In this document: one piece after another, positions 29,046 through 60,745 of the stretch
How positions within the stretch are numbered: the first letter of the stretch is position 1
How the letters are laid out: each line of letters opens with the position of its first letter
NCBI GenBank assembly: GCA_947561585.1
Contig: CANNZV010003227.1
Span: forward strand, 46,940 to 110,939
Direction of reading: 5' to 3'
DNA: 64,000 bases
Source of the DNA: Caprella mutica
Lineage: Eukaryota > Arthropoda > Malacostraca > Amphipoda > Caprellidae
Program-made: the position numbers and the translations under genes
Notes under the pieces: generated by a model
The model's input: only the letters and a program-made list of their open reading frames with translations
What the model was told of the DNA's origin: nothing
The model's database searches: none

Positions 29046-29450
29046 AAGTTATGGTGGGGCCATAGAAGATTAAGAGGGGAAAGTTATGGTGGGGCCATAG
29101 AAGATTGAGAGGGTATAGTTATGGTGGGGCCATAGAAGATTGAAAGGGGATAGTTATGGTGGGGCCATAGAAGATTGAAAGGGGATAGTTATGGTGGGGC
29201 GATAGAAGATTGAGAGGGGAAAGTTATGGTGGGGCCATAGAAGATTAAGAGGGGAAAGTTATGGTGGGGCCATAGAAGATTGAGAGGGGAAAGTTATGGT
29301 GGGGCCATAGAAGATTGAGAGGGGAAAGTTATGGTGGGGCCATAGGAGATTAAGAGGGGAAAGTTATGGTGGGGCTATAGAAGATTGAGAGGGTATAGTT
29401 ATGGTGGGGCCATAGAAGATTGAGATGGGCTCCCACTATAACTTTCTCTG
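29046..29450 (+). repeat. 34-bp family array, locus 1
   Basis: About 11 copies of GTTATGGTGGGGCCATAGAA plus GATTGAGAGGGGAA, in plus orientation. The array ends in an inverted partial copy, CCCACTATAACTTTC (about 29431-29445). Confidence 0.95.
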
Positions 29451-29926
29451 TATTCAAGTCTAATAGAAAAATATTCGTTACGTCTTATTAAAGAATAGTG
29501 CTAAATTATTATTCTTTAATTCTATTTACTATACAATACGTTTGTTATATTTGTATTTTATTTAGAATACAATACAGTATGTTTGTTTTATTCGTATTCT
29601 ATTTATTTAAAGGCGTATGAGTTTCCATAGCCACTTGCCGTGTGTGCGAGTAATAAAAACGACTCCGTAATATCAGTCATTAGTTGTTACAGAAATGACA
29701 ACATCAAGGGAGTTGTTGTACAGTGGTTTCTATTTCTATTTAGTTTATTCTCTTACTATTGTCTCTTAAAAAGAGCTTACCTATTCATTTATTCAGTGTA
29801 TTTAAACAAAAAATATAAGTTTTTTATTTAAAGTTTCCTTAGCCAACAGATTTGAATGGAATATTCTCTCATATGTAGAAATATAAAAATTATGCAGATG
29901 TATTATATGGACAGTTTATTTTTATA
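29451..29926. other. AT-rich spacer
   Basis: Contains two loose repeats of ACAATACGTTTGTTATATTT / ACAGTATGTTTGTTTTATTC (29530-29600). No gene seen. Confidence 0.4.
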
Positions 29927-30138
29927 TAGAGTAAATTCAGAGTTGTCGGACGGTTCCACATTTTCGATCATATAAGAAAAAGTATATAGTAATAATTATT
30001 TAACCTTTATTTTAATTGGTTTTCATTAACCAATTAAATGGATACCAATTAAAATATCAAAAATATCTTCATTATATAATTATTTTTTCTTATATGATCG
30101 AAGATGTGGAAGCGTTCGATGATGCGGAACTTTCCCTA
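29927..30138. mobile_element. GGGTAAG MITE, changed core
   Basis: The left arm is TAGAGTAAATTCAGAGTTGT and the right arm ends TGATGCGGAACTTTCCCTA. The core is reduced to TTTTCATTAACCAATTAAAT then GGATACCAATT. Confidence 0.8.
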
Positions 30139-30304
30139 TACATTTAGTAGATCTTATATATTCTTTTTCTATCAATTGCTAGAATTCACTTTTTAAAATG
30201 CTGTTTGCAATATAGCTGCTTGAACCAACGCAAATGTATTGACTTTTCCAGTCGATTTGTAGAGTATATTTGACTAGAATCTTGTGGACGATTTACAGCA
30301 TAGA

Positions 30305-30580
30305 AAAGTTATGGTGGGGCCATAGAAGATTATGAGAGATAGTTATGGTGGGGCCATAAGAGATTATGAGAGATAGTTATGGTTGGGCCATAGTAGATTA
30401 AGAGGGGAAAGTTATGGTGGGGCCATAGGAGATTAAGAAGGGGAATGTTATGGTAGAGTTATAAAAGATTAAAAGGGGAAAGTTATGTTAGAGATTATGA
30501 GATAGAAGATTATGAGATAGTTATGGTGGGGTTATAGAAGGTTAAGAGGATAATTTATGGTGAGGACATAAAGGATTAAG
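30305..30580 (+). repeat. 34-bp family array, locus 2 (degenerate)
   Basis: About eight copies. Early units are regular; later ones decay (GTTATGGTAGAGTTATAAAA, GTTATGTTAGAG). Plus orientation, with no inverted end copy seen. Confidence 0.9.
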
Positions 30581-31159
30581 CATAGGACTCTTCTAAAATT
30601 TTTTTAGGATACGGAGATATGGTTATAGGTATTTTGATGAGGTATTATAGGATAACTTAATAAATTTGTCTTTTGAAATTAGCAGGTGTTTTCATCTTGA
30701 AGTCTTGCTTTTAAATCTCTTTAAATTTAAACCTGTATCGTATTTATCAATTTAGTTTAATAGATCTGATAACATTTCTTCATTTGAATTTCTAAACTTT
30801 ATTGCCGTTTTTTCTAAAAGTCATTATTTTTCCATTAAAAATGCGTGATCAAACCATTCTGCATAAATTATCATCAAATTTCACCGATTCATTCCAAATT
30901 GTATTTTTGACGGGCCGGTTGCACTGGCACTAACACTACCCACATGTGGGATGGTTGTGTGTACTGTACACCCTAACCTCATGGTTATGACTTGGGTAAT
31001 GACTAGATAGGTAACCAAATTACCATCGCAACGTACAAATTATACCGGCACTAAACTTCTGGATCTTTATAGACCTGTAATTTAGTCTGTGGGTTAGCGC
31101 CTAACTGGCTTTCCTATCGGTCCTTTCAACACTTTCGATAGAGATGCAACTTTAATCTT
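30581..31159. other. Spacer with possible transposon fragment
   Basis: 30910-31070 is GC-richer and begins GGGCCGGTTGCACTGGCAC. ATTATACCGGCAC at about 31037 may be a related end. I cannot define an element. No gene seen. Confidence 0.4.
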
Positions 31160-31422
31160 ATTTAGTCGAATAGATAGGATTATAGGGTGAAAATACTACT
31201 GTTTCTTTAGATATAGATACACCATCAGCCCTATCTAGAAAAAAAGGTTGGATTTTAGTGTTTAGTTATATTGGTACACCTTCAACCCTAGATATTTCGT
31301 CGAATAGATAGGATTTTAGGGTAAAGTTATATAAGTAAACCTTCAACCCTAGATTCTCGAATAGATAGGGTTCTAGGGTAAAGTTATATAAATACAACTT
31401 CAACCCTAGATAATCGAATACT
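31160..31422. repeat. 57-61-bp tandem repeat, about four copies
   Basis: TTCAACCCTAGAT recurs at 31281, 31342 and 31399. Units also share GAATAGATAGG and TAGGGTAAAGTTATATAA. The first unit is diverged. Confidence 0.85.
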
Positions 31423-33141
31423 TGATTCCTTCTTGGATGATGGAAATTTCAGAAAAGATCCAATTTTTAATTGAGAAATATTGTTTTGAAACTAATGAAA
31501 TCGCAATTTTGATATATTTTTCACAATTTCTTTCAAGGGAATTGAAAGTTAAACTCTTGTATCATTATCGAAGTTTATATAGATTAAAGAATTGTGAAAT
31601 TGCAGTCGGATATCGACCATTTTAGTTTGCATATGGTAAATGTTTTCCATTGTGTGAACCATAATTTAGCTATTTGTTTTCTGCCGAACCTATATTTGTG
31701 GTAATGGAGGGTAACACTTATTTCTTTGTTACTTTTGAATTTCTTCTGAATCATATCTAAAGAAATCATATATTCCACATCCTCTCCTTTCCCCAATTTT
31801 CTTTAATAATTTCATCAAGTTGAATAGGAGAGTGTTCAGCAAGCGACAACAATAGACTAGGTAAGTGATTATGGCTAATTCGTCTCTTCGGAAGCTAGGT
31901 AGTAGGTAGTGTTTGGTAGGTACTAGGTAGCGTTTTTTCAGTGTTGATGGTCAGTTTGCGATCTTCTGATCGATAGCCTTTGATCCAATGATCTAATTCA
32001 CGACTTTAAGATCACAGAGATGATGTATTTATGTTGGAACAAATAGGCTGCTAGATTAATCTAGTAGGTAGAATTCTAAAATTTAGTGTTTAACAATGAA
32101 AACTTGATTGGAGCAAAATAACTTTACTGTGACCTGTGAAATTAAAATATTACAAATTGACTCAGACGAACACCAAAAATTAGTTAATTAGAGAGACCTA
32201 CTCGTTCAAAATTAATCGGTAATTACTAATTTTCTCAAATATTGAAAAATTAAAAAATTTCGAATTCGTAAATCTTACCATTGAAGATGCTTAAAACTAG
32301 AGAAAGGGCTCAACCTATTTTATATCTCACAGGTGTTATAGATAAACTAACAATTTTATCTTCTTCCTGCCAACTTGCAGTCACTTATAATAATTCTACT
32401 CGTCAATATTAGCAACAAAATAGTACCCGACTTCGAACAAAAAGAAACACCATCAAAACTGTCAAATTATCTTAGATGCTAGGTATATAGAATCCATTTC
32501 CGGTAGGGTGTCCGCTTGCGGTATCATCTTGGACATTCGATAAAGACGAACTGAGCTAAATATTATATTTATATTCAATTAAATATACAAAGGTCAGCGA
32601 AACTGAGACCTTTTCGTTCATAATACCACAGTAATTTTCGCCCATCTGTGTGAAATGTGTTCGACTCGATAATTTGTGGAACTTAAATTAAGATCTGCAA
32701 CGTTTGAATTCAGTACAGCTGCACTTTTTGAATTATTTGAAAATTGGTATTTTCAGTTATCTTGGATTTAATATTCTCCAAAAAATTATACACTTCAGAA
32801 ATAAATTATATTCATTTTCATGCAAAACAATTTATTCAAAACAATTTATTGATATTATTTAAATAGATAGATAATCGATATAACCATATATATTTTTCTT
32901 CCAGATTTGAACTGAATTTAAATGGACTATAATATTAAGTGATGAATTGAAAATAGTGAATAAAAGTGAACCTACCTGTGAAAAATAGTTTTTATTAGTT
33001 AAGCTTTACCATATTTGCGAGAACAACAACCTATTGATTATTCATTGAAAGGAATATTCTGTGTTTTGAATAGAATAATAGTGTTTATTGAAAAATACTT
33101 GTATCATTGATTGTAAAACTACTGAAGTGAAATCAGCAACC
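31423..33141. other. Mostly unique sequence upstream of a possible first exon
   Basis: No arrays or MITEs. The last few hundred bases (about 32580-33141) are A/T-rich with many ATG-poor TGAA/GTGAA words, like an insect 5' leader. The transcription start cannot be placed. Confidence 0.35.
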
Positions 33142-33187
33142 ATGGAAAATACCATTTCCATAGACAATGGCGGTGATGGATGATGAG
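33142..33187 (+). CDS. Possible first coding exon of an unidentified gene
   Basis: A strong 5' splice site (GAG|GTAAGTTTTT) follows base 33187. Two overlapping ATGs precede it. The first (33142, context GCAACCATGG) opens a 13-codon frame, MENTISIDNGGDG, and stops at 33181-33183, so it could be a regulatory upstream frame. The second (33167, context GACAATGG) reads MAVMDDE straight into the donor, ending in phase 0. I do not recognise the peptide, and no matching second exon was found downstream, where intron sequence and satellites would make up any first intron. It may equally be a chance arrangement. Confidence 0.25.
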
Positions 33188-35933
33188 GTAAGTTTTTAAA
33201 ATTAAAGTACAGTTAACCAATATTCATTGCTAAATCATTTCTTCGCAAGATAATCAATTTTTCACTGAATGTAAAAATTTCGAAAGTAGTTACATGGTTT
33301 GTTCCGTGATGCCAGAAATGTGTTATCTACTTACCAGATCAAGATAGGAAGAAACAACCTCAGACTGATTTATAGTCTGTCAATCACGTGAATCAGTCTT
33401 TTAATCATTCTTCTCCGAGGTTATTAATAACTCGATCCTTTTGTTCATTCTGTCGGTTAATACATCATAGAAAATATTACATTTACTCTGCTATAGTTAT
33501 AAGCGTAAATTCTCAATTAATATTTAACATTTTTATTGAATGACAATATGGAATATTATAAATTATTTATATCGCGTATACTTACCGTTATTAGAAATTT
33601 GTTACGTAAATAGTCGTATTGCATGTGGTCAGTCATTACTAATGTATCTATATTCATCTGAACCCAAACATTATCACAACAAAACTTTGAATTAGAGATC
33701 GTACCTGAAAGTAGCTTTACCTGAACAGTAGAGTCTATTTTGAAATTTCCTTCAGATCGATTTGTACGTTAAATTAGTATTTTGAGACAGGTATAAACGC
33801 TAATGAAAATTAATATTCGATTTGATTTCTTTTGGACCGACTGTTAGGTTATGATATGTAGAAGGCATTTCCCCTTACCTGAACCACTTATTAGCATCCT
33901 TACTGCTAATTACAGGTGATGCCTCTGATTGTTTTTGACACGCCTATATAAGTTCTACGAGACTGTAGCACGAAACAATAACAACCAGTTTAGGAAATCT
34001 GAGTTTTTACATAAAAATCATTCATACTCTATTATTTCTCTATTAATTTCATATTTTAATTTATTTTATATTGTATATATTATTTTATTAAAGCACAACC
34101 GATGGTGTGTTGTAAAATTTGATATATACTGCATGAATGATAGGTATGAATGTTGCTAACTTGCTAATATACAGATTACGGTTACTTCTTTTTTACCAAC
34201 TTAAGTTAAAATTGGATCTATTTTCTTTCGATTTACTCATACTGACAATCTATTATAACACTTCTCTCCCCTAGACATTTTTTCCCATCCAAATCTCGAG
34301 TATTCTCATTACACCCCGCTAATGAACCTATGTCCTGATTACTTCTGTCACGGCAGTTAGAGGGGCAATTGGGAACACGCCACACTAATGTAATTCACAT
34401 AACTTATTATCATAACATCCTATTGTTTGTGATTTCTGTCAGGAATATTTGCGATATTACACGATCTAGTTTATGATTTCATAACATTCCAATATTTATT
34501 GATTTAACTTCGAGTTTTATTTTAACTTTAACTTCACTGCCTGTGCTCTTTATCCCGGAAATCTGTTTATCGATTTTCCTTCAAAGATATGATGCAGTTT
34601 ATTTTAGGCAACAATTTTTTGAATGAAAGTATTCATTTTCAACCTATTAAAATTGTTGCATTATTTTGTGTCTGTTTCGCATTTTTAGGGAAATAGAATA
34701 CGTTATTGAAATATCATTGATAAAATGATAAAAGATTATCAAATTCATTGTAGTTTTTTTTTATAATATTACTTTATGTATTTTTCAATCTGAGCAGAAT
34801 TCAGATTCATTAAAACATGTTAAAATTCTGAACAGTAATATTAAATTGCGATTACTGTTGTAAACTATAACAGAATAGAAGACTAACTATCTATACGTTG
34901 AACAAACTAGATCGACATCATCTAGTGTTTATTTACATTGCATAGGTAGTGCTATAAATCATGTGGTGGGTGAGTTTCTAGGTTGGTTGGTAAGTAGGTA
35001 CGAATCCAATCACCTATGAGTCTGCATGATTTGTCACGATGTCAAAGGGTCACCCATTGACATCTATATTATGAAGTTCTGTTTGATTGGAACTGTGTGA
35101 GGCCCCAAGAACACTCGTAGAATGCTATTAGATTGCTTTTTTTTTTATCCATGCCGCCGCTTTCAGTTGGAGATATTCTGCATGCAGCAAACAATAAATC
35201 AGATTGGTACATGCACGCGGTGTAATGATTTTGTTTTTGAAAAAGAAAATTAAACATTGTAGCTAAATCACGAAAAAACTAATTTGACATTTCATGTGAG
35301 TTTTATTGTTAACTTTCTATTTTTCAATTAGAATACTTGAAAATACATCTACTTAATTACTGCGGGTTTATTAACTTCTCTTGTAAAATGATTGTACACA
35401 AGCAATAATACGGTGGAGGTAATCAGAAAATATGAACTTGCTTGAGTGACAAAACATAGAAGCAATTCCAAATTATGTCATAAAACTCCTTCCACATAAC
35501 AACCTTAATAGAGCTACTTCAATTTCTGAAACGAACTAGAAAGCGAATGGAGTAAATTGGCTCTGATAAATTAGCTGAGTTACCCTGCAAAGGTAGGAGG
35601 TGTTCAGTGCAGCGCGCCGCGGCAATACTCCAAAAAATTACAATTGTGTCCCGACAAAAATAATGGCATGGTATTACACAGTAAGATTGTGGACATAGAT
35701 CTAAATTTATTGATATCAAATGACGGAGTTCTTTGCCGAGACAGTGACGTGTGCAAAGAAAGGGGCGTGTACATGCGGTTGGTAATGTGCGACTGCGTGT
35801 TTGCCGGAAACTAATCAAACAGGCTTATGATTATCATCTTGCAGTATTATCTGGCTAATTGGCTAGTTTAATTAATCTAATATAGGCTCTTACATGTGTG
35901 TGTTTGCTTCATGTTCAGGTTAAGGTTGTAGTG
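33188..35933. other. Mostly unique sequence
   Basis: The longest stretch in the window without a tandem array or MITE. GC-richer patches at 34260-34390 and 35580-35800 (GCGCGCCGCGG at about 35612). The 99-codon minus frame at 35818-35519 has no recognisable domain. I see nothing I would call a gene. Confidence 0.45.
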
Positions 35934-36150
35934 ATAGGTTGTAGTTACGAGTAGGATGGTTGCACATTTTCGATCATATTAGAAAATAGTATATAGTAAT
36001 TATTATTTAACTTTCATTTCAATTGGTATCCAGGATGCCTGCAGGTATCATAGATACCAATAAAAATAATCTTTAAATGGCACTTATTGTATACTTTTTT
36101 CACATCTGATAGAAAATGCGTAACTATCCGATAATTCAGAGTTTACCCAT
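35934..36150. mobile_element. GGGTAAG MITE with central palindrome
   Basis: The left arm is diverged (TTGTAGTTACGAGTAGGATG). The right arm ends CCGATAATTCAGAGTTTACC. The core TTGGTATCCAGGATGCCTGC has a few mismatches to its other half. Confidence 0.75.
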
Positions 36151-41263: not shown

Positions 41264-41328
41264 AGTTCTCGCTAGTTCTCGCTAGTTCTCGCTAGTTCTA
41301 GCTAGGTCTCGCTTGGTCTTGCTAGTTC
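41264..41328. repeat. 10-bp tandem repeat
   Basis: About six copies of GCTAGTTCTC, with the last units diverged (GCTAGGTCTC, GCTTGGTCTT). Confidence 0.9.
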
Positions 41329-42235: not shown

Positions 42236-42689
42236 GACAGTTACTTCAATTCATTTAAATGATGTGTAACAGTTACTAGTACAGTACCTGTTGTAGAATC
42301 TATATTATATTCAAATGCAAGTACGTTTTATGTATACACTATACATTGTTTTTCGATTCAAATCGGATAAAATTCAACAGTGTATACAACCCCAAAATGA
42401 AGACTTTTACACGAATAACAAAATGTACATAATGTTTCGTTATCGTGATAGTGAAACTATGATTTTAGGGTAATTCTTGTAGTTCTAGGGTAATACAGAG
42501 ATTTTTGTTTTTTCTTTATATCTCTCAAAAGCCAAGGAATAAATATTATTTTCTTTTAATTGTTAATATTATTAACAATCTGTGATACTGGTACAAATTA
42601 TTAGCTTTCCTTTTAATATGTATTTCTTAATAAAACTGTGGCACACGGACGGATATAATGTCCTTCTTTTTGTCTTTAATATATACTAG
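42236..42689. other. AT-rich spacer
   Basis: Nothing regular. CACACGGACGGATATAATGT (about 42642) just before the 55-bp array may be transposon-derived. Confidence 0.4.
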
Positions 42690-44826
42690 TGTACCTGCCC
42701 GTTAAGAATAACGTGTTCTCAATAGTATCAATATTTGTAACTAGTGTACTTGTCCGTTAAGAATAACGTGTTCTCAATAGTATCAATATTTGTAACTAGT
42801 GTACTTGCCCGTTAAGAATAATGTGTTCTCAATAGTATCTATATTTGTAATAGTGTACTTGCCCGTTAAGAATAACGTGTTCTCAATAGTATCAATATTT
42901 GTAACTAGTGTACTTGCCCGTTAAGAATAACGTGTTCTCAATAGTATCAATATTTGTAACTAGTGTACTTGCCCGTTAAAAATAATGTGTTCTCAATAGT
43001 ATCAATATTTATAACTAGTGTACTTGCCTGTTAAGAATAACGTGTTCCCAATAGTATCAATATTTGTAACTAATGTACTTGCCCGTTAAGAATAACGTGT
43101 TCTCAATAGTATCAATATTTGTAACTAGTGTACTTGCCTGTTAAGAATAACGTGTTCTCAATAGTATCAATATTTGTAACTAGTGTACTTGCCCGTTAAG
43201 AATAACGTGTTCTCAATAGTATCAATATTTGTAACTAGTGTACTTGCCCGTTAAGAATAATGTGTTCTCAATAGTATCTATATTTGTAACTAGTGTACTT
43301 GCCCGTTAAGAATAACGTGTTCTCAATAGTATCAATATTTGTAACTAGTGTACTTGCCCGTTAAGAATAACGTGTTCTCAATAGTATCAATATTTGTAAC
43401 TAGTGTACTTGCCCGTTAAGAATAACGTGTTCTCAATAGTATCAATATTTGTAACTAGTGTACTTGCCCGTTAAGAATAATGTGTTCTCAATAGTATCAA
43501 TATTTGTAACTAGTGTACTTGCCCGTTAAGAATAACGTGTTCTCAATAGTATCAATATTTGTAACTAGTGTACTTGCTGTTAAGAATAACGTGTTCTCAA
43601 TAGTATCTATATTTGTAACTAGTGTACTTGCCCGTTAAGAATAACGTGTTCTCAATAGTATCAATATTTGTAACTAGTGTACTTGCCCGTTAAGAATAAC
43701 GTGTTCTCAATAGTATCAGTATTTGTAACTAGTGTACTTGCCCGTTAAGAATAACGTGTTCTCAATAGTATCAATATTTGTAACTAGTGTACTTGCCCGT
43801 TAAGAATAATGTGTTCTCAATAGTATCTATATTTGTAACTAGTGTACTTGCCCGTTAAGAATAACGTGTTCTCAATAGTATCAATATTTGTAACTAGTGT
43901 ACTTGCCCGTTAAGAATAACGTGTTCTCAATAGTATCAATATTTGTAACTAGTGTACTTGCCCGTTAAGAATAACGTGTTCTCAATAGTATCAATATTTG
44001 TAACTAGTGTACTTGCCCGTTAAGAATAATGTGTTCTCAATAGTATCAATATTTGTAACTAGTGTACTTGCCCGTTAAGAATAACGTGTTCTCAATAGTA
44101 TCAATATTTGTAACTAGTGTACTTGCTGTTAAGAATAACGTGTTCTCAATAGTATCTATATTTGTAACTAGTGTACTTGCCCGTTAAGAATAACGTGTTC
44201 TCAATAGTATCAATATTTGTAACTAGTGTACTTGCCCGTTAAGAATAACGTGTTCTCAATAGTATCAGTATTTGTAACTAGTGTACTTGCCCGTTAAGAA
44301 TAACGTGTTCTCAATAGTATCAATATTTGTAACTAGTGTACTTGCCCGTTAAGAATAACGTGTTCTCAATAGTATCAATATTTGTAACTAGTGTACTTGC
44401 CCGTTAAGAATAACGTGTTCTCAATAGTATCAATATTTGTAACTAGTGTACTTGCCCGTTAAGAATAACGTGTTCTCAATAGTATCAATTTTTGTAACTA
44501 GTGTACTTGCCCGTTAAGAATAACGTGTTCTCAATAGTATCAATATTTGTAACTAGTGTACTTGCCCGTTAAGAATAACGTGTTCTCAATAGTATCAATT
44601 TTTGTAACTAGTGTACTTGCCCGTTAAGAATAACGTGTTCTCAATAGTATCAATAATTGTAACTAGTGTACTTGCCCATTAAGAATAACGTGTTCTCAAT
44701 AGTATCAATATTTGTAACTAGTATACTTGCCCGTTAAGAATAACGTGTTCTCAATAGTATCAATTTTTGTAACTAGTGTACTTGCCCGTTAAGAATAACG
44801 TGTTCTCAATAGTATCAATATTTGTG
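42690..44826. repeat. 55-bp satellite, about 39 copies
   Basis: Unit ACTAGTGTACTTGCCCGTTA, AGAATAACGTGTTCTCAATA, GTATCAATATTTGTA. CGTTA-AGAA-TAACG is a hairpin inside the unit. Markers recur 549 bases apart: the one-base-shorter unit CTTGCTGTTAAG at 43572 and 44121, ATCAGTATTTG at 43717 and 44266, and AATGTG...ATCTATATTT at 43261 and 43810. Confidence 0.97.
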
Positions 44827-45628: not shown

Positions 45629-46106
45629 GCATAGAGTATATAAATTTAATGACAGAGGGTGTAAATAGTTCTTTATAAACTTACACTGTAGATTTTAAAT
45701 AATTTCTAATTTAGTTAACCTATTCATTTATTGCACTTATATACGAATTGGTATTTATGTCACCAATTATCAACATGTTTATAAATAAAGATATGGAAAC
45801 TATTTATGTCGGGTGATTGCCATTCTAAATAAAAATAGTATTTATTGTGTTGTCTGTGATAAAAAAGGTAATTGTTTAAATTCAAACTTTTTGTATTCCG
45901 AAAAAATAAAGTTAAAATTAAAATAAATGTAATTACATTAACAAAACGGATGAAAATTAAATTGCCTTTTTATGAGAAACTTTACTAAAAATAGATATTT
46001 AAGTTATTACTTTTCTTTAAATTTTAATAATAATTTGTACATTTCAATTCTCTTACATTATTACAACCAGCCGTATAGTCCGTACCGATATTGTCCTATG
46101 TAACCT
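45629..46106. other. AT-rich spacer
   Basis: Nothing recognised between the hAT element and the 27/28-bp satellite. Confidence 0.4.
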
Positions 46107-48380
46107 ACTAAAATTATTGACTATATTAAACCTACTAAAATTATTGACTATATTAAACCTACTAAAATTATTGAGTTTATTAAACCTACTAAAATTATTG
46201 ACTATATAAAACCTAATAAAATTATTGACTATATATATAACCTACTAAAATTATTGACTTTATTAAACCTACTAAAATTATTGACTATATAAAACCTAAT
46301 AAAATTATTGACTATATATAACCTACTAAAATTATTGACTATATTAAACCTACTAAAATTATTGACTATATTAAACCTAATAAAATTATTGACTATATTA
46401 AACCTAGTAAAATTATTGACTATATTAAACCTACTAAAATTATTGACTATATTAAACCTACTAAAATTATCGACTTATATAAAACCTACTAAAATTATTG
46501 ACTTATATAAAACCTACTAAAATTATTGACTTGTATAAAACCTACTAAAATTATCGACTTATATAAAACCTACTAAAATTATTGACTTATATAAAACCTA
46601 CTAAAATTATTGACTTGTATAAAACCTACTAAAATTATCGACTTATATAAAACCTACTAAAATTATTGACTTATATAAAACCTACTAAAATTATTGACTT
46701 GTATAAAACCTACTAAAATTATCGACTTATATAAAACCTACTAAAATTATTGACTTGTATAAAACCTACTAAAATTATTGACTTATATAAAACCTACTAA
46801 AATTATTGACTTATATAAAACCTACTAAAATTATTGACTTATATAAAACCTACTAAAATTATTGACTTATATAAAACCTACTAAAATTATTGACTTGTAT
46901 AAAACCTACTAAAATTATCGACTTATATAAAACCTACTAAAATTATTGACTTATATAAAACCTACTAAAATTATTGACTTGTATAAAACCTACTAAAATT
47001 ATTGACTTATATAAAACCTACTAAAATTATTGACTTATATAAAACCTACTAAAATTATTGACTTATATAAAACCTACTAAAATTATTGACTTGTATAAAA
47101 CCTACTAAAATTATCGACTTATATAAAACCTACTAAAATTATTGACTTGTATAAAACCTACTAAAATTATCGACTTATATAAAACCTACTAAAATTATTG
47201 ACTTGTATAAAACCTACTAAAATTATTGACTTATATAAAACCTACTAAAATTATTGACTTATATAAAACCTACTAAAATTATTGACTTATATAAAACCTA
47301 CTAAAATTATTGACTTATATAAAACCTACTAAAATTATTGACTTGTATAAAACCTACTAAAATTATCGACTTATATAAAACCTACTAAAATTATTGACTA
47401 TATTAAACCTACTAAAATTATTGACTTATATAAAACCTACTAAAATTATTGACTTGTATAAAACCTACTAAAATTATCGACTTATATAAAACCTACTAAA
47501 ATTATTGACTTATATAAAACCTACTAAAATTATTGACTTGTATAAAACCTACTAAAATTATCGACTTATATAAAACCTACTAAAATTATTGACTTATATA
47601 AAACCTACTAAAATTATTGACTTATATAAAACCTACTAAAATTATTGACTTGTATAAAACCTACTAAAATTATCGACTTATATAAAACCTACTAAAATTA
47701 TTGACTTATATAAAACCTACTAAAATTATTGACTTATATAAAATCTACTAAAATTATTGACTATATTAAACCTACTAAAATTATTGACTATATTAAACCT
47801 AATAAAATTATTGACTTATATAAAACCTACTAAAATTATTGACTTATATAAAACCTACTAAAATTATTGACTTATATAAAACCTACTAAAATTATTGACT
47901 TATATAAAACCTACTAAAATTATTGACTTATATAAAACCTACTAAAATTATTGACTATATTAAACCTACTAAAATTATTGACTATATTAAACCTATTAAA
48001 ATTATTGACTATATTAAACCTACTAAAATTATTGACTATATTAAACCTACTAAAATTATTGACTATATTAAACCTACTAAAATTATTGACTATATTAAAC
48101 CTACTAAAATTATTGACTATATTAAACCTACTAAAATTATTGACTATATTAAACCTACTAAAATTATTGACTATATTAAACCTAATAAAATTATTGACTA
48201 TATTAAACCTAATAAAATTATTGACTATATTAAACCTACTAAAATTATTGACTATATTAAACCTACTAAAATTATTGACTATATTAAACCTAATAAAATT
48301 ATTGACTATATTAAACCTAATAAAATTATTGACTATATTAAACCTAATAAAATTATTGACTATATTAAACCTAATAAAAT
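46107..48380. repeat. 27/28-bp satellite, about 82 copies
   Basis: Core CCTACTAAAATTATTGACT. The middle of the array (about 46460-47940) uses a 28-base unit with TATATAAAA or TGTATAAAA, while both ends use a 27-base unit with ATATTAAA. Nine-codon periodicity keeps all frames open in the 27-base zones, giving repetitive frames of up to 209 codons at 47920-48580 on both strands. These are artefacts. Confidence 0.97.
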
Positions 48381-48609: not shown

Positions 48610-49055
48610 AATGGGAAAGTTATGGTGGGGCCATAGAAGATTGAGAGGGGAAAGTTATGGTGGGGCCATAGAAGATTGAGAGGGGAAAGTTATGGTGGGG
48701 CCATAGAAGATTGAAAGGGGAAAGTTATGGTGGGGCCATAGAAGATTGAGAGGGGAAAGTTACGGTGAGGCCATAGAAGATTGAGAGGGGAAAGTTATGG
48801 TGGGGCCATAGAAGATTGAGAGGGGAAAGTTATGGTGGGGCCATAGAAGATTGAGAGGGGAAAGTTATGGTGGGGCCATAGAAGATTGAGAGGGGAAAGT
48901 TATGGTGGGGCCATAGAAGATTGAGAGGGGAAAGTTATGGTGGGGCCATAGAAGATTGAGAGGGGAAAGATATGGTGGGGCCATAGAAGATTGAGAGGGG
49001 AAAAGTTATGGTGGGGCCATAGAAGATTATATTGCTGTGGTGCCACCATAATTAT
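48610..49055 (+). repeat. 34-bp family array, locus 3
   Basis: About 12 highly similar copies in plus orientation, the most homogeneous block of this family. An inverted partial copy GCCACCATAATT follows at about 49044-49055. Confidence 0.95.
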
Positions 49056-49082
49056 TTCTCTAAGTACTGTAGCTTCTATTTA

Positions 49083-49339
49083 TAGGGTAAGTTCCGAATT
49101 ATCGCACGATTCCACATTGTCGATCATGTTTTTTTATTTTAATTGGTATCCAGGATACCTGCATATATTATGGATACCAATTAAAATAATGTGTTTAACT
49201 TATATCTTAATTGGTATTCATGATACATGTAGGTATCATAGATACCAAATAAAATAACGTGTTAAATTATAATTATCATATACATTTTTCTCATATGATC
49301 GAAAATGTGGAATCGTACAATAACTCGTAACTTACCCTA
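49083..49339. mobile_element. GGGTAAG MITE with duplicated core
   Basis: Both arms and flanking TA are kept (TAGGGTAAGTTCCGAATTAT; ATAACTCGTAACTTACCCTA). Two consecutive palindromic cores occur (about 49140-49180 and 49210-49250), each with some mismatches. Confidence 0.88.
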
Positions 49340-51978: not shown

Positions 51979-53155
51979 TGTTCGAAAATAATTTTACTGC
52001 TCGAAATTATTGTAAAAATCTTATTTACAAATATTGTGATAATTTAAAATTTTTTTATTTCAATCTAGATTCAATTTTTTAAATTTTGATTTAAATAATG
52101 TTGATTCAAATTTATTTAAATATTGATTTAAATTTTATTTTATTCCTTAACACCCTGCGATAAAGTAGTTATGGTGGGCCATAGAAGATTAACCAGAGTT
52201 TTAATCTACTGTAGCCCCACCATAACACATCATCAGAGTAACTTTCAAAGAATGTTAATTCCTCCCAATCCCTCCACTTGAACGTGTGCCACCAACTTTT
52301 TTTAGCACCATGTCAATATTACAAGTTCCTGTACCTAAATCGCTCTAATCTAGAACCCATAAACCAGTGCAGCCAGCCAGCACCCACCTAAATCGCCTAT
52401 AAATCTTCTATGACTGAGGGTAGCGACAATGGGTTAATGTTGGGAACAGGGTTGTTGATGACATAATTCCTAACCCTTTTTAGAGGGTTATCGTTGGTGT
52501 GATTTTGCAGCGTGAAAATGATGACCAGTGCGATCGTGACGTCATAATGCATTTTTTTATACGTGTTTATTTTAATTTGTTCTAAATTGTTCTAATTGTA
52601 AAATTGAAGTAACCTTGTTGATGTGCTGAATTGATAGTTTTGTAATTAGATTTCTATATTTTTGGACGGTTTTATTGTTATTTGTTCGATATCGAGGATA
52701 CGGACCAGAAGTGTTTAGTTAAATGATATAAATAATTATACTATACCAATCTGTATAAAGTTTTATAAAAATATTATATTATTTTTAAAGTTTTTTTCTT
52801 CTTCGGCTAACTGACATTTTAATCAGATTGCTACTGTTTAAATTCCATTCTTTTTTAAATTCAGTCAGGGCTACAGTTTATTCTTTTTAAATTCGGTCTG
52901 CCTATATTATCGTAGAGTGTTGCTATAGTTAAATATCATTCTTTTTAAAATAGCCTATATTGTCGTAGAGCGCCCCTGGTGCCGAAAAGCTGAACTAGTG
53001 ACCGGTGGCTCCCTCCAGTGACGATAAATCAACGGACATCACGCCGGTGTCACCGTCACTATCAACTCTTTCATTGGGTCCGATGCACTGGTGACGATTA
53101 TGTCTTTTTTAGAATATGGGGATATATGTGGAGAAGTACACCATGTTGCTATAAA
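51979..53155. other. Spacer with small repeats
   Basis: 52846-52975 carries two to three loose copies of TTCTTTTTAAA followed by GCCTATATTRTCGTAGAG. 52970-53100 is GC-richer (GTGACCGGTGG, ACGCCGGTGTCACCG). A 34-bp family hairpin lies at 52165. No gene seen. Confidence 0.45.
52165..52230. mobile_element. 34-bp family single hairpin unit
   Basis: One plus-oriented copy (GTTATGGTGGGCCATAGAAG, ATTAA) directly faces one inverted copy (TTAATCTACTGTAGCCCCAC, CATAAC). With an 8-base middle it forms a 66-base fold-back. No tandem copies are attached. Confidence 0.75.
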
Positions 53156-53323
53156 TAGGGTAAGTTATGAATTATCGGTCGGTTTCACATCTTCGGTCAT
53201 GTAAGAAAAGCGATATAATAATTATTTTAATTGGTATCCATGGATTACAATAAAAATCAAATAATATTTTTTTTTTATATTACCGAAGATGTAAAACCGA
53301 CCGATAATTCGTAACTTACCCTA
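53156..53323. mobile_element. GGGTAAG MITE, core mostly deleted
   Basis: Arms are excellent (GGGTAAGTTATGAATTATCG; CCGATAATTCGTAACTTACC), with TA flanks. The core is reduced to TTGGTATCCATGGATTACAA, consistent with deletion through the palindrome. Confidence 0.9.
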
Positions 53324-53689
53324 TTTTAAGTGAATCATTAGGTTTGATGTTGGAACTGCCTATTTTTACCCTTCCATAATGGTATTTTGTGAAGAAATAT
53401 AATGTTCTATATTGTTATATTATGTTATGTATTATTATATTAAAATATGATGTTTAACATGACCTAACTGTTATTTCTTATCATTTTGCATCAAATACCT
53501 GTACTAGATTAATATTTTTAATATTTTTTCTATCATTTTAGAATTGAAATTGTTTTAATTTGGTAAGAGTTATTTAAATTTTTTTTTTAATTTTGAATAA
53601 TATTTACGCTTCACCATAAAATCTGAGGACAATTGGTATAGTGAAAGGTTTTCCTTTGAATCTAGTATCTAGTAACTTAAGAAACTTGT
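53324..53689. other. AT-rich spacer
   Basis: No feature recognised. Confidence 0.4.
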
Positions 53690-53909
53690 TGGGTCAGTTA
53701 CGAATTATCGGTCAGTACTACATCTTCGGTCGTATAAGTAAAAACAATATAAAAATTGTTATTATATATATAGATAGCACTGTGTAATAATAACAATTTT
53801 GATACTTGTTTAGTTGACCCTATCCAAGGGTCAACTAAACAAGGAGTCTATAGTTTTTTCTTATATGACCGAAGATGTAGTACTGACTAATAATTCGGAG
53901 CTTACCCTA
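53690..53909. mobile_element. GGGTAAG MITE, alternative core
   Basis: The arms belong to the GTAGTACTGACCGATAATT subtype. The centre holds GATAGCACTGTGTAATAAT and a different hairpin, CTTGTTTAGTTGACCC facing GGGTCAACTAAACAAG. Confidence 0.88.
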
Positions 53910-54495
53910 GTATCATGATATAATGATAATTTGGAAAAAAAAAAGATTTTTTTTAAATTTACCATCGTGAAATAAGAAAAAAAACTATATTATTTTTTGC
54001 TGCAAATTTATTAAGTTAGTATGATGCATAGAAACTATAGCAGTATATTCACTATATATCGATTTGCTTCACTTTAGCAGTATTCAAATGAGTGTTAGAA
54101 GTAATCTGCTTATAGCAAGCACTATGGATTGTATGACTCAGATTTGAATGCATTATACTTGTTTACAGCCTACCGCATTTCAGCCGCTTGATGGGGAAAT
54201 TATTGATGGTTTATTTTAGTATTATTTCATTTATTTGATTATTGACGCTTTTTTTATTTTGGAAATTATTGATATTCTATCATTTTAAATTATTTCTATT
54301 CTTTTATTTATTAAATTATTGATGTTCAATTTATTTAATTATTGATGTTCAATTTATTTAATTATTGATGTTCAATTTATTGAATTATTGATATTCTTTG
54401 ATTTAGAGGATTATTGATGTTTTATTTATTTTTTAGACTAAAATATATCGCTACTGTAAATGAATTTATCAATATAATTAATCTTAATTATAATA
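53910..54495. other. AT-rich spacer with a 25-bp repeat
   Basis: 54290-54420 contains about four copies of ATTATTGATGTTCAATTTAT plus TTAAT. No gene seen. Confidence 0.55.
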
Positions 54496-54557
54496 ATATT
54501 TTTTTTTCTTATACGATCGAAAATGTGAAACCGTCCGATTACTCAGATCTTACCCTA
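54496..54557. mobile_element. GGGTAAG MITE, solitary right arm
   Basis: TTCTTATACGATCGAAAATG, GAAACCGTCCGATTACTCAG, ending TTACCCTA. No left arm or core nearby. Confidence 0.7.
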
Positions 54558-54623
54558 TTATCCATCTCGCTGTTCCCATAATCGGTTTCGGATCATTTTT
54601 TGTGTACTATCATGGAAATTAGT

Positions 54624-54951
54624 AACGAGGGGGAAATTATGGTGGGGCCATAGAAGATTACGAGGGGAAATTATGGTGGGGTCATAGAAGATTACGAGGG
54701 GGAAATTATGGTGGGGTCATAGAAGATTACGAGGGGGAAATTATGGTGGAGCCATGGAAGATTAAGAGAGGAAATTATGGTGGGGCCATAGAAGATGAGA
54801 AGGGAAAGTTATGATGGGACCATAGAAGATTAAGAGGGTAAATTATGGTGGAGCCATGGAAGATTAAGAGGGGAAAGTTATGGTTGGGTCATAGAAGATT
54901 GAGTTTGGCACTTTATATTGTCGTTGGCCTCACCATAACCTTTTCTGGGTG
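54624..54951 (+). repeat. 34-bp family array, locus 4
   Basis: Eight or nine variable copies in plus orientation (GAAATTATGGTGGGGTCATA and similar), closed by an inverted partial copy GGCCTCACCATAACC at about 54926-54940. Confidence 0.93.
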
Positions 54952-54958
54952 CTAATAG

Positions 54959-55010
54959 CCCAGGCGAGAAGGATTTAATCCTGGGAAATTGAAGGAGTAT
55001 CCCAGGAATA
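54959..55010. mobile_element. Hairpin MITE fragment
   Basis: CCCAGGCGAGAAGGATTTAA, TCCTGGGAAATTGAAGGAGT, ATCCCAGGAATAAA match the element at 4233-4341. It lies directly after the 34-bp array. Confidence 0.5.
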
Positions 55011-55516
55011 AATTTGATAAATAAATAATAAAATTGTATGAAAATAGGAGATAAATTAAAACAGCGATACAAATATTAGTGATACTTAATTTCCTATTGA
55101 TAAAAATATACATGCTACAAGTATCAGTGATACAAATTATAGTTATTATTGGCGGTATACAAGTAACATAAAGAAACTTTTATCAATAGTTCTTTAGTAG
55201 CAATAATTTCCTTTTCTTTTTCCATAACTATTCATATTGGGACTCGCTTTTCCGCACCCGCGATATTATTTGTTTTGATTGTTTTCTCTTGTATGTAATC
55301 CCCCACCATAATCTGCCGTAATAACGCGGTTAAACGTGTCAAAATATTCCAAAACAAAGTCCCTGCAGGGATGACAAAATGTATCCTGGATACGATGAGG
55401 ATTAACTTGCGATGGATATAAAATAATAAATTTACCAGGGATAAAGAGAATAATATTTATTTACCAGGAATACACTGTATGTGTGGATTATAATATTATT
55501 TATCAGGGATATAATG
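55011..55516. other. Spacer with scattered repeats
   Basis: 55079-55160 carries words of the 26-bp palindromic minisatellite (AAGTATCAGTGATACAAAT). 55420-55516 has loose repeats of ATAATATTATTTACCAGGAA, which continue after the next MITE. No gene seen. Confidence 0.5.
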
Positions 55517-55734
55517 TAGGGTAAGTACTTAATTATCGGTCAGTTCCAAATTTTCGGTCATATAAGATGAAACAATATAAAAATAATTATTTCACTAGGA
55601 TTGGTTGAGTAAAAACAACCAACCCGGGTTTGCAGAAGTATTAGATAGCACTGTGTAATAATGATAATTTTTATATTGATTTTACTTATATGACCGAAGA
55701 TGTAGTACTGATCGATAATTCGGAATTTACCCTA
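55517..55734. mobile_element. GGGTAAG MITE, alternative core
   Basis: Left arm GGGTAAGTACTTAATTATCG; right arm of the GTAGTACTGATCGATAATT subtype. Shares GATAGCACTGTGTAATAAT with the copy at 53690, but carries GGTTGAGTAAAAACAACCAA as its other inner segment. It splits the TTACCAGGGATA repeat. Confidence 0.88.
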
Positions 55735-56063
55735 TGTATTAATTATCATTACATAGATATTTGTTTAGTATAATATTTTTACCTGGGATATATGTAGGAA
55801 TGAATTATGATATTATTTACCAGGGATATACATAGTGTATCAATGAATTATATAATTATTTATTTTTATAGTATAGTATACATGAATGAATTTAATTTAA
55901 TAAATTTAAATTTATTTAAATTCCTTGTAAACAGCTTTTTCATTTCCAATAATCAATAGATAAAACCATTATTATCAAACTGTTAACTACTCCCATTTTT
56001 TATTCTGATGTTTTAATCTTATTTTTTTCATACACCTTCTTTCTTAAGCTTATTTTTTGGCTA
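55735..56063. other. AT-rich spacer
   Basis: Left part continues the degenerate TTACCTGGGATATA / TTACCAGGGATATA repeat (55780-55840). No gene seen. Confidence 0.45.
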
Positions 56064-56231
56064 TAGGGTAAATTCCGAATTATCGGTCAGTACTACATCT
56101 TCGGTCATATAAGAAAAAACAATATAAAAATTATTATTATTACACAGTCCTATCTAATAAAATTTTGTATATGTTTTTTTTTCTTATATGTCCGAAGATG
56201 TAGTACTGACCGATAATTAAGAACATACCCC
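56064..56231. mobile_element. GGGTAAG MITE, inverted alternative core
   Basis: Arms GGGTAAATTCCGAATTATCG and ACTGACCGATAATTAAGAAC. The centre reads ATTATTATTACACAGTCCTA then TCTAATA, the complement of the core at 53690 and 55517. Confidence 0.85.
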
Positions 56232-56934
56232 AGGACTATTTTTTGCTTCTTAATTAGATATATTACACAGTGTTTAATCAATTACCTGTTCTTCAATTAT
56301 CATTTTTTGATTTTATCTCATCATGTATATGTATGTACATACATCTTTAAACATGTTCGTTATTTTTTTTTTATGTGATTGGTATTTTTTATTAAGTATA
56401 AATTAATAGCTAAAAAATAAATGTATTATATTAACATTGAGATGACTATATAGATAATAGAAGCGATACGATATGTTCTTTGGTAAATAAATATTAATAA
56501 ATATTTAAATAATGAAAAAATTATCACCGTAATTTTATCCATTAATTATTATATGTTTTTTTTACCAGCGATGCAATATTTGTTTTAATTATAATATTAT
56601 ATTGTTTAATATGATATTTAAGAATATAAATCTTGAAATAGTATTTTAAATAGTATAATCGTGATAGCTAAAACTTTTAAAAAATTAATCCAAACATTTA
56701 AATCATAAAATAATATGTCTTGATTTTTTTTTAAATATTTTAATAAAAATAATATATTATATATATAAATCATCGGTATTCATGCCCTAAATTACTATAG
56801 ATATATAGCCTTAAAATAACATTTATTGAACATTATCGCCTTTATTTCAACTATAAACTATTTTCATATATCCCTTTCAGTATATTTATTATAGGTAGGG
56901 AATGTATGTACAAGCAATTACAAAAAAACATTAG
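56232..56934. other. Very AT-rich spacer
   Basis: No array, MITE or gene recognised. Confidence 0.4.
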
Positions 56935-57146
56935 TTGGGTAGGTTCTGAGTAATCGGACGGTTCAACATTTTCGATCATGTTAGAGAAAAAAATATGTTG
57001 ATTTTTTTATTTTAACTCGTTATTTTAGTATCCATGATACTTACAGGTATCATGGATACTATATAATAAAAGTTAAATAATAATTATGCCATATTTTTTA
57101 CATGATCAAATATGTGGAACTGTCCGATAACTTGGAACTAACCCTT
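56935..57146. mobile_element. GGGTAAG MITE with central palindrome
   Basis: Left arm TTGGGTAGGTTCTGAGTAAT and right arm CCGATAACTTGGAACTAACC. The core GTATCCATGATACTTACAGG then TATCATGGATAC has one pair of mismatches. Confidence 0.85.
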
Positions 57147-57667
57147 CAGATTTATCATGTGATATTACTTCTAAAAAGTTTATTATTTATCAGTAACATT
57201 TAAACGTTTAACATATTTTTCCTTTATTTCTGCGGGTGATAGTACTTTGGTTAATTTCATTAGTGTAATTACTGTAGGTTACACAGGATATAGAAACTGC
57301 AGCGTGTAACGATAGTATGTAAGTACAGTCAGCTACAGAAATAGAAACTGATGTGTGAGCTAGGAAATTATCTCATATTTTCATACAATTCTATTATTTA
57401 ATATTTTATTTATTTTATAATATATTTGATTGATATTTTATAATTTTGATATCTTTTATTTTATAAAAATTATAATATTACCTATATACTTATAATAAAT
57501 AATATGTCTTCAATTAAATAATGATAATTAATGTATTAATATTTAATTGATCTTTCATTTTGATGATGATGATCAATTAATTATTTATTTATTAATATTA
57601 TTTATCTTCAATTTAATTTTTTTTAAATATTCATTTGTTTATCTATTCAAATTAAATATATTATATA
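57147..57667. other. AT-rich spacer
   Basis: Simple AT-rich sequence (TTTATAATTTTGATATC-like). No gene seen. Confidence 0.4.
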
Positions 57668-57981
57668 ATTATGGTGGGGCCATAGAAGATTGAGACTGGA
57701 CCCTCTTCAATCTCCTATGGCCCCACCATAACTTTTCCCTCTTAATCTCTTATGGCTCCAACCATAACTTTCCCCTCTTAATCTCCTATGGCCCCACCAT
57801 AACTTTCCCCTCTTAATCTCCTATGGCCCCACCATAACTTTCCCCTCTTAATCTCCTATGGCCCCACCATAACTTTCCCCTCTTAATCTCTTATGGCTCC
57901 AACCATAACTTTCCCCTCTTAATCTCCTATGGCCCCACCATAACTTTCCCCTCTTAATCTCCTATGGCCCCACCATAACTG
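57668..57981 (-). repeat. 34-bp family array, locus 5, inverted
   Basis: One plus-oriented copy (57668-57694) faces about eight copies in minus orientation (CTCCTATGGCCCCACCATAA, CTTTCCCCTCTTAAT). Two of the minus units share the variant CTTATGGCTCCAACCATAAC, spaced by about four units. Confidence 0.95.
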
Positions 57982-57998
57982 GCATGGCTGTTTTAGTC

Positions 57999-58029
57999 GT
58001 CAAACTACACGTACCCTATCTAGTTTGAC
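57999..58029. repeat. Perfect 9-bp stem-loop
   Basis: GTCAAACTA and TAGTTTGAC separated by 13 bases, directly after the inverted array. Confidence 0.6.
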
Positions 58030-58194
58030 GGTAATTATTTAATTACCTGTATGTTTTTATACGTCATTCTATATATGTAATTAACGCAGCTAATCTCATT
58101 TTAATAAAGGAAATTGACCATTGTAATTACAGTGGTAGTTAGTTGGTTTACCTGTAGTTTGGTATTTGCTTGTTCTGAGCATTTTATTCAGTTT

Positions 58195-58484
58195 ACTAGT
58201 GTACTTTCCCGTTAAAAATAACGGGTCATCATCAATACCAACTTATTACCCGTTATTAGGTCAATTTTAATGAAATCAATTAAATTTAAATTTTCCGCAT
58301 AGTCTAATTTATTTTATAGATAGAATACATTTAAAAATTGAATAAAAACAGGGGAATTTGAATATCAAGTCAATATATTCCCGTGCGTATCATAGTTACA
58401 TTCTTCATGTTTAATACCCGTAGTGTAAAAGCGGACACAAAATAAATAAATAAACACACTACGGAAATTATTAGGATAGATTAG
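58195..58484. mobile_element. Dispersed element sharing the head of the 55-bp satellite
   Basis: Begins ACTAGTGTACTTTCCCGTTA, AAAATAACGGG, matching the first half of the 55-bp unit at 42690-44826. It then continues as non-satellite sequence to GCGGACACAAAATAAATAAA, TAAACACACTACGGAAATTA near 58480. The layout resembles widespread small insect retroelement fragments, from memory. Class and right end are uncertain. Confidence 0.45.
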
Positions 58485-58512
58485 TTTTACTGGTTAGTTG
58501 AGAAATGTTATA

Positions 58513-58690
58513 TAGGGTAAGTTCTGAGTTATTGGACAGTTCAACATTTTCGATCATATAAGAGTAGGTTTATATTTTAACAATTGAACTCGTTAATTTA
58601 ATTGGTATCCGTGATACCTGCAGGTATCATGGATACCAATTGAAGTATGAGTTAAATAGTAATTATTGATTATTTTTCTTACGTGATTTG
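58513..58690. mobile_element. GGGTAAG MITE, right arm lost
   Basis: Left arm TAGGGTAAGTTCTGAGTTAT and a complete core (one mismatch, GTATCCGTGATACCTGCAGG). The right side ends after TTTTTCTTACGTGAT. Confidence 0.85.
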
Positions 58691-58827
58691 TAAGCTTATG
58701 ATAAATTTATTTTTTAACTTTCATTTTAAAATTGATTTATATCGTTTAAATTATTTGTTTAATTTATTTTGATACTTTTAATAGTTTTAACATTACTAAA
58801 GCTGTAAAAATAATAATGGCTTGAGAA
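58691..58827. other. AT-rich spacer
   Basis: Nothing recognised. Confidence 0.3.
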
Positions 58828-59000
58828 GAAGTTATGGTTCAGGCCTTGGTAGATTAAGAGGGAGAAGTTATGGTGGGGCCATAGAAGATTAAGAGGGAAA
58901 GTTATGGTGGGACCATAGAAGATTAAGAGGGGAAGTTATGGTGGGGCCATAGAAGATTAAGAGGGAAAGTTATGGTGGGGCCAGAGAAGAGTATGAGGGG
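58828..59000 (+). repeat. 34-bp family array, locus 6
   Basis: Five variable copies in plus orientation (GTTATGGTGGGGCCATAGAA, GATTAAGAGGGAAA). The first (GTTATGGTTCAGGCCTTGGT) is the most diverged. Confidence 0.93.
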
Positions 59001-59833
59001 AAAAGAGTCCCTTTAAATAATACTAAATCACACTAAACATTGAATTATTCCATTACATTAAAAATGACAAACACTTTCAAAGTAAACATTTCAGATTATT
59101 TAGTATGGAAATTGATCTAAACCTTCCTTTCCCATATTAATATGCAATATTAAGTTATTTTTCTTTATTTTATTATGATTTTGTTTTCATAGAAAATTCT
59201 GAAGAAATTTTTCCTGCATGAAACTTTATATCGGAATAGTTAACACTGTACGACAAGATTGAGATTTTTCAAGACACACATATTTTAAAATAGTGTACAG
59301 GCTACTAAAACAACCTTAAGAATTATTAAAAATTATTATTTAGAATGTTAAAGAATTATAAAATGTGTAAATAATTATTAAAATAAACTAACGAATTAAT
59401 CCATCCCATTGTTCCGTGCAATTTAAAAAAAAAAGCCAGAAGAAGCAGACTTTCTTTAAATAGTTAAAAAAACAATTATCTTTATTTAGACAGTGAACAT
59501 TAAAAAACGAAAGATATACTTCCCTGCTCTACGACCATGGCCTTCAACCATCGCTAATGTTAGTGGCCTTCAACCGACTGCAAAACAACTTCAAAATTTT
59601 GAATTAATATTTAGAAATCAAAATTTAAATGAAATACGTAAACAATTTTCAAAGTAAGGTGATGAATTAATTATTCCTACTGGTCTTATTTCCCCCGTAT
59701 TTTCTGTTATGTCTTGGTACCCACATCACTCAGTTACTTCGCCCTATCAATAACCATTTACTCGTTACCTTTGTTACCTGTTACAATGGCTCTCACACCT
59801 CTAATGAGTAATGTAACACCGTAACACGTGCTA
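59001..59833. other. Unique sequence
   Basis: AT-rich with a short GC-richer block at 59520-59580 containing TGGCCTTCAACC twice. No gene seen. Confidence 0.4.
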
Positions 59834-60036
59834 TAGGTGAGTTACGAGATATAACACGATTAAACATTCTCCATCATATAAAAAAAATACAAATCTTTAC
59901 GATTTTTTAACTCGTCACTTTATTTTTTTTTTCAACTAACTTGTTATTTCAATTGGTAACCAGTTGGCAAATTAGTAAATTTAGTATCCATGATACCTTA
60001 GTTCAGGTATCATAGATACTAATTTTTTTCTTAAAC
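59834..60036. mobile_element. GGGTAAG MITE, right arm lost
   Basis: Left arm TAGGTGAGTTACGAGATATA. The core is split by a few bases (ATCCATGATACCTTAGTTCA then GGTATCATAGATAC). The right arm is not recognisable. Confidence 0.7.
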
Positions 60037-60134
60037 TGTAGAACGAAAATAAATCGAATTCACAGCTAATTTAACTTTTAATTGTGTTCAGATATCAACT
60101 CTATTTCAGTTTATAAATGGTATAACTACACAAG

Positions 60135-60745
60135 AAATTATGTTGGGGTCATATAAGATTAAGGTGGGTCCCCTCTTAATCTAAGATGTACGCACAATAG
60201 CTGAGTTTTTATCTTCCAGTACTCCACCATAACTGTGTTTTATTCTCCCAATATCCTACCATAACTGGGTTTTATTCTCCCAATGTCCCACTATAACTGG
60301 GTTTCAATCTCAAAATTCCCCACCATAACTGTGTTTTATTCTCCCAATGTCCCACTATAACTGGGTTTCAATCTCAAAATTCCCCACCATAACTGTGTTT
60401 TAATCTTCTATGGTCCCACCATAACTGTCTTTCAATCTATGGCCCCACTATAAGTGAATTTTAATCACCCAATGCCCCACCATAACTGTGTTACAATCTT
60501 CCAATACCCCACCATAACTCTGTTCAATCTCCCAATGCCCCACCATAGCTCTGTTCAATCTTCCAATGCCCCACCATAACTGTCTTTCAATCTATGGCCC
60601 CACTATAAGTGAATTTTAATCACCCAATGCCCCACCATAACTGTGGTACAATCTTCCAATACCCCACCATAACTCTGTTCAATCTCCCAATGCCCCACCA
60701 TAACTCTGTTCAATCTCCCAATGCCCCACCATAACTGTGTAGATC
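60135..60745 (-). repeat. 34-bp family array, locus 7 (diverged, inverted)
   Basis: One plus-oriented copy (AATTATGTTGGGGTCATATA) is followed by about 18 diverged copies in minus orientation, of type CCCCACCATAACTGTGTTTT with ATTCTCCCAATG. Within it a group of about six units (CTATGGCCCCACTATAAGTG...) is duplicated, seen at about 60438 and 60593. Confidence 0.88.

Follow-up and report, generated by a model that had tools for sequence, protein, structure and literature searches.

One minisatellite unit occurs at eight loci, called A to H here, in a stretch of 64,000 nucleotides from the amphipod Caprella mutica (contig CANNZV010003227.1, positions 46,940 to 110,939 of the forward strand; this whole stretch is termed the window, and its own coordinates are used below). 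The unit probably represents one arm of a very short miniature inverted-repeat transposable element (MITE) which inserts at TA and seeds minisatellites by tandem expansion of one arm, sometimes of both; to this reading we assign a probability of about 0.8. The initial annotation of the window had suspected a mobile element that seeds minisatellites, namely a fold-back element that inserted repeatedly before one of its arms expanded in tandem, and both ideas hold up. Transposition is suggested by the copy number, the unrelated flanks and the preference for TA, and expansion of the arm after insertion by the geometry, with its facing pairs and solitary fold-backs, and by array junctions that differ from place to place.

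Genomic copies and target site of the element

The assembly that holds the window comprises 903 Mb in 7200 contigs. The 20-mer GTTATGGTGGGGCCATAGAA, with at most three mismatches, matched it 39,977 times (19,555 + 20,422), a count of units and not of loci, against 930 matches (457 + 473) for the reversed control 20-mer. Exact facing pairs (-> <-) numbered 181 genome-wide and back-to-back pairs (<- ->) only 3 (p about 1e-49). Tandem neighbour pairs of the exact core amounted to 2,950 + 3,062, tallied per pair with many pairs in an array and thus not to be taken as locus numbers. Reversed controls gave 0 for all three arrangements. Twenty-eight fold-backs were fetched, 10 with 80-nt and 18 with 45-nt flanks; they are the first 32 entries in a list of 50 distinct places among the 181, less four that were skipped. 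No other piece of the unit lay within 40 nt in 21 of the 28, so that the whole-genome search called for by the initial annotation did reveal solitary fold-backs. Eighteen further stretches of at most 10 kb, over 19 clusters, were fetched from 100 listed places of 20-mer matches. They hold 24 loci, 11 with a run of at least three units and 13 without, in a sample that is biased in both directions: seeking loci with an exact match favours arrays, and five loci that were met incidentally lack the exact 20-mer by the choice of the stretch, which favours single copies. Two arbitrarily chosen stretches held no unit locus.

The outer end of the element reads TA|CCC(A/T)GAGAGAAAGTTATGG. In the stacked free outer ends TATGG comes after a purine-rich GAGAGAAAGT, and CCC or CAC stands ahead of this purine-rich end. 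From TATGG to CCATA the facing pairs span 43-70 bp at the 50 listed places, to which about 14 nt are added on each side, and the centre of the fold-back is variable in length and sequence, often resembling GAGGGGACC(C)CTC. From the listed sequences the whole element can be read as about 90 bp long and close to one palindrome. Among 56 free ends (32 fold-backs), 17 had TA exactly 14 nt ahead of TATGG, an offset that was picked after viewing a first stack of 49 free ends; at the other offsets between 8 and 25 nt, TA was present at 3 to 12 of the 56 ends. Exact outer ends CCCWGAGAGAAAGTTATGG were preceded by TA in 57 of 100 cases genome-wide and in 51 of 94 when the six ends of a single array (on C102) were left aside. 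The background, taken from the fetched 10-kb stretches and the window, was 145 of 1650 CCC triplets (9 %). Because the outer ends follow TA far above this background, the sequences suggest a MITE about 90 bp long with a TA target like that of Tc1/mariner MITEs. The element is short, carries terminal inverted repeats, has a high copy number and is surrounded by unrelated flanks in the sample, as is usual for a MITE, and its TA target (51/94 versus 9 %) is that of Tc1/mariner.

Other affiliations were considered and rejected. FB elements create a 9-bp target duplication; an FB-type insertion was dismissed, as 14 fold-backs showed no excess of direct repeats. Arms of tandem short repeats, as in FB elements, were found in expanded copies (L054) and not in the solitary element. 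Helitron-derived elements (HINE/DINE-1) have asymmetric ends, no terminal inverted repeat (TIR) over the whole element and an A|T target; a Helitron-like origin was rejected on account of the same inverted arm at both ends, often after TA. Rfam returned 0 matches at the gathering threshold, and a 24-mer of the unit had no match in viral contigs. An exact 18-mer was present in 13 bacterial contigs, which is about chance, 7 to 8 being expected for 257 billion bases; each of these contigs had one strong profile match, two of them with one extra weak match.

The eight loci and the side of the inverted arm

Within the window the 20-mer search gave 52 matches, the maximum over 100 dinucleotide shuffles being 0, and a profile scan placed unit copies at all eight loci that the initial annotation had named. 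Unit periods are 34-35 bp, except at H. The unexpanded form is represented by locus D, a solitary fold-back with its left arm at 52167-52192 (+ strand) and its right arm at 52199-52226 (-). Folded as single-stranded DNA and compared with shuffles, this facing pair had a hairpin z of -6.5. At locus A, 11 direct copies of period 35 (29042-29428, +) face the outer half of a lone opposite arm (29432-29448, -; z -3.3). Locus C has 12 direct copies of period 35 (48613-49029, +) and a lone opposite arm at 49038-49058 (-; z -5.4), locus E 8 direct copies of period 34/35 (54629-54903, +) and a lone opposite arm at 54925-54939 (-), with a weak hairpin (z -1.8). In the reverse orientation, a nearly perfect lone arm at F (57665-57698, +; z -8.2) is followed by 8 copies of period 35 with a 141-bp higher-order duplication (57707-57981, -). 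Locus H is built likewise from a lone arm that kept the family sequence (60135-60163, +; weak hairpin, z -1.5) and a diverged array (60170-60738, -) with a unit of 31-32 bp, its own junction ACACAG and a 155-bp higher-order repeat; a half unit at 60170-60182 adjoins the lone arm, the profile copies span 60222-60738, and the outer flank reads CTACACA on both sides by eye. Relative to shuffles, the stability of the facing pairs was much higher at D, F, C and A, but only weakly so at E and H. An opposite arm was found neither at B, a degenerate direct array (30304-30579, +), nor at G, with five direct copies of period 34 (58828-58999, +). The initial annotation had seen a run facing an opposite copy at six loci. 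The facing arrangement stands for A, C, D, E, F and H; D is however no array, only one fold-back of about 60 bp, the opposite arm is recognisable over just 15-21 bp at A, C and E, and H is strongly diverged.

The inverted arm was assessed by comparing the 70-nt flank with 20,000 random 70-mers of the window from outside the unit family. On the 3' side the inverted match had p <0.0001 at A, D, E and F, 0.0025 at C and 0.0084 at H, where the match is clipped by the 70-nt limit; it was at chance level at B (p 0.23) and G (p 0.60). On the 5' side all eight loci had p >0.6 against the same random 70-mers. The lone inverted copy is thus always 3' of the run at the six loci. None of the 26 other tandem arrays of the window reached p<=0.01 for an inverted border; the two lowest values were 0.019 (25869-25989, inside a MITE) and 0.029. 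The null of this control-array test contained the family loci themselves, so that four of the seven family arrays came out at 0.016-0.022 and not one at 0.01; for the family it is the comparison with random 70-mers from outside it that is valid. Among the 18 arrays of at least three units, a search of the adjoining 90 nt detected an inverted arm (p<=0.01) 3' of the run in 8 and 5' of it in none.

This one-sidedness bears on the reverse order of events, in which the array predates the inverted copy and local template switching or palindrome formation at the edge of the array produced that copy. Hairpins can provoke template-switch or palindrome-type repair, and the single unit itself contains a small hairpin. 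Yet the fold-backs without arrays, the 3'-sided position of the inverted copy (181 versus 3 pairs, 8 versus 0 of the 18 arrays) and the absence of inverted borders from the 26 other arrays argue against such an origin. The lone arms at F and H, moreover, lack the variants of the adjoining array: at F the arm reads AGAAG and the array units AGGAG or AAGAG, and at H the arm keeps the family form while the array has diverged. We consider an array-first origin very improbable.

Even less credit is given to the possibility that the eight loci descend from one ancestral locus by segmental duplication. Within 800 bp on either side, the eight loci have copies of a second dispersed MITE family, M1, in common, at varying distances; the remaining likeness consists of DNA common to neighbouring loci and of two short matches, one of 18 nt and one of 96 nt (71 %). 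Apart from these the loci do not align beyond the unit, and the alignment of all flanks that had been named beforehand as a refutation did not appear. Segmental duplication does occur elsewhere: the loci L055 (4911-6562) and L056 (4778-5277) lie in one flank sequence that is duplicated on one contig, in opposite orientation and about 57 kb apart, with common flanks of about 240 bp and 210 bp and arrays of 48 versus 15 units. Among the 42 loci of the window and the fetched stretches (~260 kb) this was, however, the only pair with matching flanks at both junctions.

Junctions and the growth of the arrays

In the 35-bp unit of the window the arm's inner GAGGGG is joined directly to the outer AAAGTT of the following copy, and A, B, C and F have one junction, GATTRAGAGGGGAAAG, in common. 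Beyond the window the periods of the arrays range from 26 to 49 bp, and the junctions between GAT and TTATGG vary. In the 26-bp unit GATTAAG or GATTGAG is joined to TTATGG; other junctions are GATAAAAAG at 28 bp, GATGAGGGGTAG at 31 bp, GATTRAGAGAGAAAG at 34 bp and GATTGAGAGAGGAAAG at 35 bp, and GATTGAACACAG was listed as a further form next to that of the window. A unit type of 46-49 bp carries the complete outer end with TA. Such arrays were observed at C5:1267540-1267746 (period 46-49) and at C102:201232-201628, where six copies follow each other in steps of 47 or 94 with TA before each. At L054 both arms are doubled (>><<). Because periods and junctions differ between arrays, the expansion of the arm seems to have begun many times separately.

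The proposed element would consist of TA|CCC(A/T)GAGAGAAAGTTATGGTGGGGCCATAGAAGATTRAGAGGGG, a centre that is short and variable, and an inverted copy of this arm, and would be inserted at TA by the machinery of a putative Tc1/mariner-like transposon. After insertion one arm, sometimes both, would be duplicated in tandem. GAGAG-like repeats are present at either end of the arm, and the review PMC6947457, which cites Haber and Louis, names short flanking direct repeats as the start of minisatellites. The first duplication would most likely arise by slippage or unequal repair between these purine-rich direct repeats around the arm core, perhaps aided by the hairpin; slippage between them may be the initial step here as well. 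More slippage and unequal exchange would lengthen the run, the opposite arm staying behind as a lone inverted copy. A stronger version, which we regard as evenly balanced, sees in the element a built-in minisatellite generator, with GAGAG-like repeats that prime every insertion for a first duplication and with very many independent births in a single genome, all from one starting sequence that is known and many of them labelled by the surviving arm.

Alternatively, the spreading unit could be an element with a pre-formed array arm or a piece of an array, e.g. in the form of circular DNA, so that arrays would not be born at each site. The common junction of A, B, C and F fits such ready-made arrays, as do the weak grouping of the units by locus in the window and 28 shared polymorphisms, in excess of 14.3 ± 3.8 in a rough null that ignores mutation hot spots (14 of 5000 simulated values reached 28). 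Opposed to this are the varying periods and junctions of arrays elsewhere, the number of array-free fold-backs, and locus H, which has its own junction and whose units group clearly together (distance 0.130 within H versus 0.182-0.279 to other loci). A single ready-made array ancestor was demoted to a rival because the junctions differ genome-wide, and the spread of ready-made arrays as the general explanation appears unlikely. Its contribution at the four window loci is another matter: their common junction may derive partly from spread or exchange of ready-made arrays.

Several observations weigh against birth of the arrays in place from an element inserted at TA. The nearest neighbour of a unit was in its own locus for 11 units, in another locus for 9 and a tie for 28 of the 48, in an analysis that omits D, H, the lone arms and matches under 20 bits. 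Units of A and C differed by 0.050, compared with 0.066 within A and 0.028 within C. Because the window units group so weakly by locus, ready-made arrays that spread or were exchanged have probably contributed alongside birth in place. Ten of the 18 arrays had no detected opposite arm within 90 nt; among them, the arm of H falls beyond 90 nt and L052 just misses the threshold (p 0.0102). Direct repeats of any length were not in excess at 14 fold-backs (mean 3.29 vs 3.21) and reached only 3 nt at the six window loci. TA|C was present at both ends in 4 of the 24 fold-backs with free ends, at one end in 11 and at none in 9; so either the ends have decayed or insertion does not duplicate TA every time.

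Neighbouring repeats, host DNA and known systems

The second MITE family of the window, M1, has the end TAGGGTAAGTTCCGAATTATCGG; 34 of its arms were found in the 64 kb, with 13 copies paired, at places that include 7709-7904, 17704-17895, 27688-27832, 49084-49338 and 53157-53322. Several copies have TA at their ends. A central tandem duplication is present in two of the 13 paired copies, at 25869-25989 (3 x 40 bp) and 49135-49271 (2 x 68 bp), and tandem growth inside palindromic MITEs is therefore not confined to one family. A link between M1 and the arrays was considered, M1 lying near many of them, and is not claimed: M1 is dense throughout the window, and closeness was judged without a formal test.

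About 33 % of the window consists of tandem repeats with a period of at least 10, with large arrays at 14831-17025, 19834-22088, 42685-44825, 46102-48380 and 61079-64000. The 55-bp minisatellite at 42685-44825 has a partial solitary relative about 13 kb apart (58195-58241; 47 nt, 81 %), in which a small hairpin was seen by eye; this minisatellite is possibly another seeded repeat. Most of the repeat-rich DNA sits upstream of two LIM-domain exons (Pfam LIM) on the - strand, at 543-824 and 9278-9568. Three relatives were found for the second exon, the sole named one being Lhx5 of Portunus. By their sequence the exons would belong to an Lhx1/5-like gene, which marks the DNA of the window, with a GC content of 0.31, as animal.

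The conversion of transposon ends into tandem repeats is a known kind of event. TIR-derived tandem repeats are reported to spread with a MITE in the Xmix/Xstir system of Xenopus (Hikosaka and Kawahara, cited in PMC2872659 and tabulated in PMC9659126); the element described here differs from Xstir in that it measures only ~90 bp as a whole, that the array is the arm itself and that many junctions exist. The fold-back element Tetris of Drosophila virilis likewise feeds tandem arrays from its TIR repeats, which according to PMC4079207 are ~220 bp long and part of the element before amplification, whereas our solitary element has no internal tandem repeat. In the F subfamily of Galileo (P superfamily) from D. 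mojavensis the number of direct repeats also differs between the arms; PMC3573991 gives a mean of 668 bp for its long TIRs, in which repeats of ~210 bp occur 2-3 times, and the element belongs to another superfamily. The BrickBuilt MITE of Porphyromonas gingivalis combines a minisatellite of a 23-nt unit with small inverted ends and has 19 forms in one genome, but it is bacterial and its array is depicted in PMC4596501 between leader and tail subunits rather than as an expanded arm. CMITE of Acropora is another animal MITE that forms tandem arrays; it is reported in PMC2872659 with TTAA targets, a relation to piggyBac and a conserved internal region. In sugar beet, BvMSat05 minisatellite arrays lie beside palindromic motifs and slippage was proposed, the palindrome being in the account of PMC2820488 a neighbour of the array and not the source of its unit. 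Among the papers listed by literature searches on the topic, none described a palindromic MITE below 100 bp with such repeated arm expansion, which is not a proof of absence.

Minisatellites seldom reveal their first duplication, since the sequence from which they started is in most cases not known. In the present case the sequence before expansion is available, the element is very small, and the array's origin is often marked by a lone arm. The junctions of many first duplications can be compared with one another, so that slippage between short direct repeats and hairpin-provoked repair become directly testable against each other. The element would also offer a simple route from a minute non-coding transposon to dispersed repeat arrays across a genome.

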